Assembly (NCBI RefSeq): GCF_003993795.1
Contig: NZ_RWKV01000003.1
Location: 62,001 to 126,000, forward strand
DNA from: Aquabacter cavernae
GTDB taxonomy: Bacteria > Pseudomonadota > Alphaproteobacteria > Rhizobiales > Xanthobacteraceae
DNA length: 64,000 nucleotides
Direction: 5' to 3'
The position numbers were made by a program, and so were the translations under genes. This document shows positions 60,450 through 64,000 of this stretch, piece by piece; position 1 is the first letter of the stretch, and every line of letters starts with the position of its first letter. Under the pieces are notes generated by a model. The model ran no database searches. It was not told the origin of the DNA and worked only from the letters and a program-made list of their open reading frames with translations.

Positions 60450-63400
60450 TGGCCCTCAACATCTCCGCCTGGGCGATCCGCAAGCCGATCCCCTCGCTCG
60501 TCCTGTTCGTGGTGCTCACCGCGCTCGGCATCGTGCATTTCCGGTCCATGCCGGTCACGCAGATGCCCAATATCGACGTGCCCATCGTCATGGTCTCCAT
60601 CACCCAGCCGGGCGCCGCGCCCAGCGAGCTGGAGACGCAGGTGACCAAGAAGGTGGAGAATGCCGTTGCCGGCGTCGCTGGCGTGAAGCACATCACCTCC
60701 TCCGTCTCGGAAGGCGCGTCCGTCGCCATCGTGGAATTCCACCTGGAGACCCAGGTGGACCGGGCGGTGAACGATGTGCGCGACGCGGTCACCAAGATCC
60801 GCTCCGATTTGCCCCAGTCCATCGACGAGCCGCAGATCCAGCGCGTGGACATCGAGGGCGCGGCCATCGTGACCTATGCGCTGTCCTCCGCCAGCCTCTC
60901 CACGGAGGAATTGTCCTGGTTCGTGGACGATACGGTGGCGCGTGCGCTCCAGGGCGTGCGCGGCGTCGCCCAGGTGAAGCGCCAGGGGGGCCTCGCGCGC
61001 GAGATCCGGGTGTCGCTCGACCCCGACCGGCTGATGGCGCTCGGCATCACGGCGGCGGAGGTGAGCCGCCAGTTGCGCGCCACCAATGTGGATGTGTCCG
61101 GCGGGCGCGGCGAGGTGGGAACCCAGGAGCAGTCCATCCGCACCCTCGCGGGCGCGGCCACCGTGGACGAACTGGCCGACACCCGCATCGTGCTCTCCAA
61201 CGGCCGCCATGTGCGCCTGAAGGATCTGGGAACGGTCTATGACGGGGCCGAGGAGGCCCGCAGCTTCGCCCGCCTCGACGGGCGCCCCGTGGTGGCGTTC
61301 GGCGTGTTCCGCGCCAAGGGCTTCTCGGACGTGGTGGTCTATGACCGCGTGGCCGAGGCGGTGAAGGAGCTGCAGGAGGCCAATCCCGACATCTCCATCT
61401 CCATGATCGACACCACGGTCCGCTACACCAAGGCGGACTATGAATCCGCCATGCACACCCTCATCGAGGGGGCGATCCTGGCGGTGATCGTGGTGTTCCT
61501 GTTCCTGCGCGACTGGCGGGCGACGCTCATCACCACGCTGGCCATCCCTTTGTCCATCCTGCCCACCTTCTGGATCATGGACATGCTGGGCTTCTCGCTG
61601 AATGCGGTGAGCCTACTGGCCATTACCCTGGTGACGGGCATCCTGGTGGATGATGCCATCGTGGAGATCGAGAACATCGTGCGCCATATGCGGCAGGGCA
61701 AGTCGCCCTATCGCGCCTCCATCGAGGCGGCGGACGAGATCGGTCTGGCGGTGGTGGCCACCACGCTCACCATCGCCGCCGTGTTCGTGCCGGTCTCCTT
61801 CATGAGCGGCATTGCCGGGCAGTATTTCAAGCAGTTCGGCATCACGGTGGCCATCGCGGTGCTGTTCTCGCTGGCGGTGGCGCGGCTCATCACGCCCTTG
61901 TTCGCCGCCTATTTCCTGCGCGATACGGGCCACCGCCAGGAACGCGACGGGCCGGTCATGCGCTCTTATGTGCGCATCCTGGCCTGGTCCATCCGCCATC
62001 GCTTCCTGACCATTCTCATGGGCTTCGGCGTGTTCGCGGGCACCATTTTCCTCTCCACCATGCTGCCCTCCGGCTTCCTGCCGGAGAACGACATCTCGCG
62101 CACCATGCTTTCGGTGGAGATGCCGCCGGGCACCACGCTCAGTGAGACCCAGAAGGTCTCCGACCGCATCACCTCCATGCTGATGGCTCAGCCCGAAGTG
62201 GCGAGCGTCTATTCCACCGCCGGTGACGGCGGGGAGGGGGGCATGTCCATGTCGGCGGGCGAGGTGCGCAAGGCCACCATCATCGTGAACCTGAAGCCCC
62301 GCGCGGATCGTACCGTCTCCCAGTCGGACTTCGAGGACCGGCTGGATGCGGAGCTGCGCAACCTGCCCGACATGCGCTTTTCCTGGAGCGCCAACGGGCA
62401 GAACACCCAGCGCGGCTTCACCGTGATCCTCTCCGGCAATGACGGGGCGGCGGTGGAACAGGCGGCGCTGAAGCTGGAGACGCAGACCCGCGACCAGGTG
62501 GGCGTGCTCACCAACGTGGTCTCCTCCGCGTCCCTCGACCGGCCGGAAATCCGCATCGTGCCCAAGCTCGACCAGGCGGCGGAACTGGGCGTGTCGGTGG
62601 ACACCATCGCCGAGACGGTGCGCATCGCCACCATCGGCGACATCAACGCCAACCTCGCGAAATTCTCCGCCAAGGACCGGCAGATCGATATCCGCGTGAA
62701 GATGGACGAGAAGGCGCGCGCCCAGCTCGCCACCTTCGACGCCATCCGCGTGCCCACGTCCACGCCGGGCGTGTCGGTGCCGCTCTCGTCGGTGGCCACC
62801 ATCAGCTTCGGCAAGGGGCCCACCGCCATCGACCGCTATGACCGCGCCCGCCGCATCGCGGTGGAGGCGGACCTTGTGGGCGACACGCCGCTGGGCACGG
62901 CGCTGGAGGCGGTGAAGGCGCTGCCCGCCGCCCGCGACCTTCCGCCCGGCGTGGCGCTGAAGGAATCGGGCGACGCGGAGATCATGGGCGAGGTCTTCTC
63001 CGGCTTCGCCATGGCCATCGCGGCGGGCATCATGCTGGTTCTGGCGGTGCTGGTGCTGCTGTTCCACGATGTGCTGCAGCCCATCACCATTCTTATTTCG
63101 CTCCCCCTCTCGGTGGGCGGCGCCTTCGTGGCGCTGCTGCTCACGGGCAATTCCGTGTCGCTGCCGGTGGTCATCGGCTTCCTCATGCTCATGGGCATCG
63201 TCACCAAGAACGCCATCCTGCTGGTGGATTTCGCGGTGGTCGCCATGGCCGAGGGGCATGACCGCTTCACGGCGCTCATCGAGGCGGGCCGCAAGCGCGC
63301 CCAGCCCATCGTCATGACCACCATCGCCATGGCGGCGGGCATGGTGCCCTCGGCGCTGGGCCTGGGGGAAGGCGGCGCGTTCCGCGCGCCCATGGCCATC

Positions 63401-63583
63401 GCGGTCATCGGTGGCCTTTTGGCCTCCACCGTGCTCTCGCTGGTGTTCGTGCCGGCGGTGTTCTCGGTGATGGACGATCTCGACCATCTGCTGAGCCGCA
63501 TCTTCGGCCGCTTCATCGGCAAGAAGGACGAACCGGGCGAGGACGAGACGCCCGCGCACACCGCCTCCCGCCCCGCCGAGTGA
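60449..63583 (+). CDS. RND-family efflux permease (AcrB-like)
   Basis: A 1044-residue inner-membrane pump with 12 helices and two large periplasmic loops. The N-terminus is WAIRKPIPSLVLFVVLTALG, and MPNIDVPIVMVSITQPGAAPSE-type porter sequence follows. The proton-relay helix 4 has LVTGILVDDAIVEIENIVRH with the paired acidic residues, and helix 10 has LMLMGIVTKNAILLVDFAVV with the Lys. It exports drugs or metabolites with its MFP partner; the outer-membrane channel is not encoded nearby. Complete and start-coupled to the adaptor gene. Confidence 0.95.
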   Translation: MALNISAWAIRKPIPSLVLFVVLTALGIVHFRSMPVTQMPNIDVPIVMVSITQPGAAPSELETQVTKKVENAVAGVAGVKHITSSVSEGASVAIVEFHLETQVDRAVNDVRDAVTKIRSDLPQSIDEPQIQRVDIEGAAIVTYALSSASLSTEELSWFVDDTVARALQGVRGVAQVKRQGGLAREIRVSLDPDRLMALGITAAEVSRQLRATNVDVSGGRGEVGTQEQSIRTLAGAATVDELADTRIVLSNGRHVRLKDLGTVYDGAEEARSFARLDGRPVVAFGVFRAKGFSDVVVYDRVAEAVKELQEANPDISISMIDTTVRYTKADYESAMHTLIEGAILAVIVVFLFLRDWRATLITTLAIPLSILPTFWIMDMLGFSLNAVSLLAITLVTGILVDDAIVEIENIVRHMRQGKSPYRASIEAADEIGLAVVATTLTIAAVFVPVSFMSGIAGQYFKQFGITVAIAVLFSLAVARLITPLFAAYFLRDTGHRQERDGPVMRSYVRILAWSIRHRFLTILMGFGVFAGTIFLSTMLPSGFLPENDISRTMLSVEMPPGTTLSETQKVSDRITSMLMAQPEVASVYSTAGDGGEGGMSMSAGEVRKATIIVNLKPRADRTVSQSDFEDRLDAELRNLPDMRFSWSANGQNTQRGFTVILSGNDGAAVEQAALKLETQTRDQVGVLTNVVSSASLDRPEIRIVPKLDQAAELGVSVDTIAETVRIATIGDINANLAKFSAKDRQIDIRVKMDEKARAQLATFDAIRVPTSTPGVSVPLSSVATISFGKGPTAIDRYDRARRIAVEADLVGDTPLGTALEAVKALPAARDLPPGVALKESGDAEIMGEVFSGFAMAIAAGIMLVLAVLVLLFHDVLQPITILISLPLSVGGAFVALLLTGNSVSLPVVIGFLMLMGIVTKNAILLVDFAVVAMAEGHDRFTALIEAGRKRAQPIVMTTIAMAAGMVPSALGLGEGGAFRAPMAIAVIGGLLASTVLSLVFVPAVFSVMDDLDHLLSRIFGRFIGKKDEPGEDETPAHTASRPAE

Positions 63584-63642
63584 ACGTCCCCTCGGTTGGA
63601 TCGATATTCGGATCGCTGGAGCGATTTTGGCCTCTTAGGGCC

Positions 63643-63736
63643 GTCATGCCCGGGCTTGTCCCGGGCATCCACGCCTCCGGGTCGAGCGTGATCCAGGCCG
63701 AACCCCGTGGATGGCCGGGACAAGCCCGGCCATGAC
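63643..63736. repeat. Rhizobiales-type intergenic inverted repeat
   Basis: Arms of 31 bases (63643-63673 and 63706-63736) beginning GTCATG and containing GGGCTTGTCCCGG match with two differences around a 32-base centre. The element lies 60 bases after the RND gene stop. Similar sequences are scattered between genes of many rhizobial genomes. The rest of the gap 63737-63866 holds nothing I can identify. Confidence 0.82.
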
Positions 63737-63866
63737 ACCGCTTTTTTGAAAGAACGGTCCCGACCGCTTGAATGTCGGTCGGCCCTCGTGAATTCCCGGC
63801 GCGGGCTTCGGCCCGTGCCGTTCGGGAGCGGTCCGGCGGCCCGCCGCCGCAGCGCAGCATGCCCGC

Positions 63867-63915
63867 TTGACTTGTTCGCCAAAAAGAACGATATCGGTTC
63901 TATCGGACTTATCAG
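63867..63915 (+). promoter_or_regulatory. Promoter-like region with triple TATCRG repeat
   Basis: TTGACT (63867-63872) could be a -35, with GATATC (63890-63895) 17 bases later as a weak -10. TATCGG, TATCGG and TATCAG begin at 63892, 63901 and 63910, an exact nine-base period, and may be regulator contacts. CGATATCG (63889-63896) is a perfect dyad. It drives the short Cys-rich ORF that follows. Confidence 0.45.
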
Positions 63916-63931
63916 GCGAACGGGTGCGGCC

Positions 63932-63961
63932 ATGATGTGCTGCTTGTGTCGGCGAATGTGA
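63932..63961 (+). CDS. Candidate cysteine-rich leader peptide, MMCCLCRRM
   Basis: A nine-codon ORF starting with two ATG and encoding Met-Met-Cys-Cys-Leu-Cys-Arg-Arg-Met before TGA. Three of nine codons are Cys, and the Arg codons are CGG and CGA. A weak GGGTG lies upstream, and a promoter-like region 40-65 bases before. GCGGC (63964-63968) and GCCGC (63975-63979) just after the stop can pair. The pattern resembles leader peptides whose translation speed reports cysteine supply to a downstream sulfur gene. The gene it would control lies beyond the right edge, so the role is inference. Confidence 0.5.
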   Translation: MMCCLCRRM

Positions 63962-64000
63962 CTGCGGCCCTGACGCCGCGCGTGACGCCTGTCCCGTTTT

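Follow-up and report, generated by a model that had tools for sequence, protein, structure and literature searches.

Known leader peptides and methionine regulons

Leader peptides that respond to an amino acid are known for many amino acids. For cysteine, leader ORFs with runs of Cys codons and without terminators have been predicted in Actinobacteria (PMC1262725), and cysteine-responsive attenuators have been shown in mycobacteria (Canestrari et al. 2020, cited in PMC9094748 and PMC13236596). As far as we have found within the open-licence literature, actinobacteria are the only group in which cysteine leaders are established, and mycobacteria the only one in which they have been shown experimentally; trp leaders, among others, are discussed in a ribosome-profiling study of Sinorhizobium, which leaves cysteine leaders aside. 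For the methionine genes of the Rhizobiales, comparative work on proteobacterial methionine regulons has reported the regulator SahR and the SAM-II riboswitch (PMC4239095). The passages of that work on which we draw report neither the operator GTTCGnnAAAnCGAAC described below nor a leader peptide at metNIQ.

Here, we consider a mini-ORF in a 64,000-nt stretch of Aquabacter cavernae DNA (the window, whose numbering is used throughout), and we propose that it is a cis-acting leader that, on balance, probably tunes metNIQ in response to sulfur amino-acid supply, with cysteine as the likeliest of these amino acids. Based on the papers that cite them, the mycobacterial polycysteine leaders resemble this locus in that a short Cys-containing ORF precedes a sulfur operon, searches have found no intrinsic terminator, and the output is proposed to be Rho-dependent or translational. 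Unlike them, as they are described there, the metNIQ mini-ORF is not leaderless, is only 5 to 13 codons long, has Met as frequent as Cys, and precedes a methionine ABC transporter operon in alphaproteobacteria, behind a promoter that carries a regulon operator. The trp and his attenuators, including rhizobial trpL (PMC10117765), likewise place a peptide rich in the codons of the pathway amino acid directly 5' of the operon, but neither their terminator/antiterminator pair nor a hairpin plus U-run was found for the leader in the window. SAM-II (SAM_alpha, RF00521) likewise acts on methionine genes of these bacteria at the RNA level, according to the relevant passages of PMC4239095, and it occurs at metZ beside the same operator; unlike SAM-II-controlled genes, the metN leader has no SAM-II match. 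Finally, the SahR, SamR, and MetJ regulons are, in those same passages, transcription-factor regulons covering methionine and S-adenosylmethionine (SAM) genes, as the regulon proposed below would be; the operator GTTCGnnAAAnCGAAC lacks ATC-N10-GAT, the consensus they give for SamR and gammaproteobacterial SahR.

The mini-ORF, its promoter, and its leader

An earlier sequence-only reading of this DNA had picked out the ORF MMCCLCRRM, a promoter-like stretch before it, and a GCGGC/GCCGC stem after it. All three are present: the ORF agrees exactly in coordinates and codons (read as ATG ATG TGC TGC TTG TGT CGG CGA ATG TGA), the promoter-like stretch resolves into paired hexamers, and the stem stands just past the stop (Table 1).

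Table 1. Positions of the elements of the metNIQ promoter and leader within the window
Feature	Position	Strand	Remarks
Core promoter of metNIQ, TTGACT - 17 bp - GATATC	63867..63895	+	TTGACT, 63867-63872; GATATC, 63890-63895; TTGAC-N17-GAT-type element conserved in 23 genomes
Operator-like palindrome O1, GTTCG-N6-(C/A)GAAC	63874..63889	.	In promoter spacer; common to metK, sbp-cysTWA, and metZ upstream regions of relatives
Conserved stretch gaACGGGTGCGGCC	63918..63931	+	Directly 5' of mini-ORF ATG
Mini-ORF MMCCLCRRM	63932..63961	+	3 Cys, 2 non-initiator Met, TGA stop
Start of 113-nt C-rich region up to metN GTG	63962..64000	+	metN GTG ~75 nt past window end
Small hairpin GCGGC/GCCGC	63964..63979	+	GCGGC, 63964-63968; GCCGC, 63975-63979; 2 nt after stop codon

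Taken by itself, the Cys count of this single mini-ORF is weak evidence, and a chance origin would not be improbable: the window holds 428 ATG-initiated ORFs of 5 to 20 codons, and in five of these (four distinct), Cys occurs three times or more. One of the others we considered, MRWCCC at 2438, was rejected as a second Cys leader, lying as it does inside a coding gene.

A strict sigma-70 scan did not list the TTGACT/GATATC pair of the window, and the -10 elements of relatives (GATATT, GATGTT) are better than its own. In the window and in relatives, the ATG of the mini-ORF lies 60 to 67 nt downstream of TTGAC; if TTGAC is the -35 element, the 5' untranslated region would be about 25 to 30 nt and the mini-ORF would not be leaderless. 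The conserved stretch gaACGGGTGCGGCC is the probable ribosome-binding region. Farther upstream, in the interval that separates the metN promoter from an RND pump gene, positions 63641 to 63740 are occupied by an interspersed inverted repeat of the CCCGGGCTTGTCCCGGGCAT type, to which nearly all of the 71 matches belonged when positions 63000 to 64000 were used in a genome search.

The sequence-only reading had also asked whether a sulfur or cysteine gene follows to the right. Past the window, metN (GTG at G000:C4:126075), metI, and metQ come next and form an operon for a methionine ABC transporter, and so a sulfur operon is found there, annotated for methionine rather than cysteine. MetI scores above its NCBIfam cutoff; MetN has TIGR02314 as its best match, below the equivalog cutoff, and contains a NIL domain; MetQ is assigned to the MetQ/NlpA family.

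The GCGGC/GCCGC hairpin is retained by genome G001 and by all but one of the four other genomes of the genus, and G006 has a different hairpin; many lineages have a small hairpin of differing sequence a few nucleotides after the stop, and in comparison with shuffled sequences, its z score falls below -2 in only 5 of 19 leaders. The whole 181-nt leader of the window folds no better than shuffles (z, -0.54), and metN start accessibility follows no consistent pattern across leaders. An Rfam search of the metN leader gave no relevant match, SAM-II included. The earlier suggestion of a classical attenuation device does not hold up in its terminator form: a terminator scan of the window's leader found no intrinsic terminator, with neither a hairpin plus U-run nor a terminator/antiterminator pair, and thus this is not a trp-type attenuator. 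A Rho-dependent or translational output is likelier. The ORF-to-metN stretch (113 to 181 nt across relatives, with 36 to 46% C and 23 to 32% G) would suit Rho, and this composition is not proof of it.

Conservation across relatives

It is conservation in relatives that makes the mini-ORF more than chance. MetN orthologues of at least ~74% identity occur in five genera of the family, and their upstream regions have in common TTGAC-nn-GTTCG-nn-AAA-nn-GAAC-GAT, found once per genome in 17 genomes and always before metN. When public genomes were scanned for the operator only, with no regard to the ORF, loci of like arrangement came up in Xanthobacter, Aquabacter, and Azorhizobium. With the count completed by a search of the genus Xanthobacter, 23 genomes carry the operator before metN, these three genera being among the five. 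A mini-ORF of 5 to 13 codons stands at the equivalent position in 22 of the 23, across five genera, and it contains Cys in each, so that a Cys-containing ORF is conserved in relatives, as the earlier proposal, which is supported in part, had called for. The more distant MetN homologues of the family that we read (at most 62% identity) have neither the operator nor a homologous mini-ORF.

The 22 mini-ORFs encode 11 peptide variants: MMCCLCRRM, MTCCLCRRM, MTCCHCRRM, MACGLCMRCSMRM, MMRCLCMRM, MTRCRCMRM, MMCRCCC, MMMCR, MMMCC, MSMCRSSL, and MSMCRSFL. Every variant has at least one Cys, at least one non-initiator Met, and a UGA stop, and this Cys-plus-Met pattern persists while the remaining residues vary. 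Among representatives of the five genera, Cys accounts for 12 of 34 codons versus 1.0 expected from leader base composition and Met for 10 of 34 versus 0.3; the lineages are related, and the nominal P values of these enrichments are too small. A run of Cys adjoining the stop is present in Azorhizobium (CCC-stop) and in MMMCC and absent from the mini-ORF of the window.

In three congeneric genomes, the mini-ORF is 97%, 100%, and 87% identical to that of the window, versus 74%, 66%, and 64% for the stretch from ORF to metN; when G001 is included, the ranges are 87 to 100% and 60 to 74%. The mini-ORF of G006 has a 12-nt in-frame insertion, by which one Cys is gained. Most substitutions within the ORF are non-synonymous, and therefore the Cys codons are not cleanly separable from conserved nucleotides.

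An operator shared with other sulfur and methionine genes

The palindrome GTTCGnnAAAnCGAAC of the metN promoter recurs before metK, sulfate-transporter, and metZ genes, which places metNIQ in a sulfur/methionine regulon. With at most one mismatch, the palindrome GTTCGnnAAAnCGAACnAT is found in 16 of 17 genomes, with up to four sites in each, versus none for a reversed control pattern. The recurring sites lie before metK, behind an XRE-type regulator gene, in eight genomes (the genome of the window itself has a degenerate one); before sulfate ABC transporter genes at five loci, behind cysH in the one that is annotated; before metZ in three genomes, together with a SAM-II riboswitch; and before a DsbA-like gene in two. 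The operator (positions 63874 to 63889 of the window; L084, L089, L095, L092, and L099) marks what is apparently an undescribed regulon of metNIQ, metK, a sulfate ABC transporter, metZ, and a DsbA-like gene. Judged by position only, the regulator may be the XRE protein encoded beside metK.

Of the 23 leaders, 17 (e.g., L016, L017, and L021) have a second copy of the palindrome between mini-ORF and metN, at 39 to 64 nt from the metN start, versus a shuffle mean of 0.36; the leader of the window has none. No Cys mini-ORF was found at the metK, sbp, and metZ operator sites. The non-metN matches of the public scan (L061, L068, L070, L072, L074, and L079) may be due to chance. In L070, from Paracoccus alkanivorans, an exact operator match is just 5' of a gene whose start resembles that of an integration host factor subunit; this too may be chance.

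A proposed model of sulfur amino-acid attenuation

We posit that the mini-ORF is most likely part of a ribosome-mediated attenuator that reads the supply of Cys, or of Cys and Met; the ORF, its conservation, the sulfur amino-acid operon after it, and the shared operator are observed, and translation, stalling, and the output step are what we infer. In this model, a regulator at the palindrome would first gate transcription from the TTGAC promoter, and a ribosome would then translate the mini-ORF. When charged Cys-tRNA (and perhaps Met-tRNA) is scarce, the ribosome would stall on the Cys codons, either a few nucleotides before the small hairpin, which would apply to the window and to several relatives, or, in Xanthobacter, on codons that could pair with a conserved downstream block. 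The stalled ribosome would alter the leader RNA, and metNIQ would be expressed. In groups A and C of Xanthobacter, the well conserved internal leader blocks (CGCCACGTCGTC; GCGTCATGTCGA) show complementarity to the mini-ORF of their own group, codon 2 being where the two mini-ORFs differ, and for the group C mini-ORF the pairing with its own block is better than that with the others; block-level P values for this pairing are post hoc. When mini-ORF/downstream duplexes were compared with shuffled downstream sequence, nearly all sequences were not significant (best P, 0.02). The blocks hint that the ORF pairs with the leader and that a stalled ribosome would open this pairing, and this is only suggestive. 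When supply is good, the ribosome would finish at UGA and the leader would keep its low-expression form, the output being Rho-dependent termination in the C-rich stretch or a closed metN start.

Met is enriched as strongly as Cys, and the mini-ORFs of Xanthobacter have one or two Cys codons; for these reasons, “cysteine” is less certain than “sulfur amino acid” as the thing sensed. The single Cys of most Xanthobacter mini-ORFs counts against codon stalling, for which it is few. We entertain more tentatively the fuller possibility, which we regard as somewhat short of an even chance, of a proteobacterial sulfur-amino-acid attenuator that reads Met and Cys through an ORF of as few as five codons (MMMCR), stacked on an undescribed sulfur/methionine operator and controlling methionine uptake. 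How few codons are sufficient for a leader sensor? The minimal MMMCR form raises exactly this question; the shared operator opens an apparently uncharacterised regulon, and the locus, being conserved and present in alphaproteobacteria that are in culture, lends itself readily to testing.

Other readings of the mini-ORF

Could the mini-ORF be translated without sensing any amino acid, damping metN translation constitutively or coupling to it? The ATG, the region upstream of it, and the UGA stop are conserved while much of the peptide varies, as one would expect of such an upstream ORF. We consider this unlikely, given that Cys and Met in the genus representatives lie far above expectation and that the ORF sits before a sulfur amino-acid operon within a sulfur/methionine regulon.

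It is also rather unlikely that the leader senses methionine, via elongator Met-tRNA or SAM status, with the Cys codons incidental. The identity of the downstream operon fits this idea, as do the non-initiator Met in all variants, an enrichment of Met at least equal to that of Cys, and the Xanthobacter peptides MMMCR and MMMCC. Against it, MMCRCCC of Azorhizobium combines four Cys with a single internal Met; in MTCCLCRRM and MTCCHCRRM, with three Cys each, the lone Met beyond the initiator is the last residue; and runs of ATG may be only alternative starts.

Another possibility, which we judge improbable, is that the ORF is untranslated and its conserved bases form an RNA-pairing or protein-binding element. 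The excess of non-synonymous changes would be natural here, three TGT codons can also be read in the +1 frame of the ORF in the window, and the conserved Xanthobacter blocks complementary to the ORF fit this reading too. The untranslated element sits poorly with a frame that survives a 12-nt insertion, with a start and stop kept though stop position and peptide differ between genera, and with the CCC encoded before the Azorhizobium stop. A functionless chance ORF is very improbable: Cys-rich ORFs of such size do arise a few times per window by chance, but a counterpart at the homologous position in all but one of the 23 genomes contradicts it.

A natural deletion

The sole exception among the 23 genomes, G542 (L114), bears on the proposed attenuator as a natural, built-in control. 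It keeps the promoter, the operator, and the second operator and has lost the mini-ORF together with most of the leader, a joint loss that is as expected if ORF and leader work together. The distance from operator to metN is 125 nt in G542 versus 271 nt in G538, which has the same operator variant, and about 146 nt, including the ORF region, have thus been lost.
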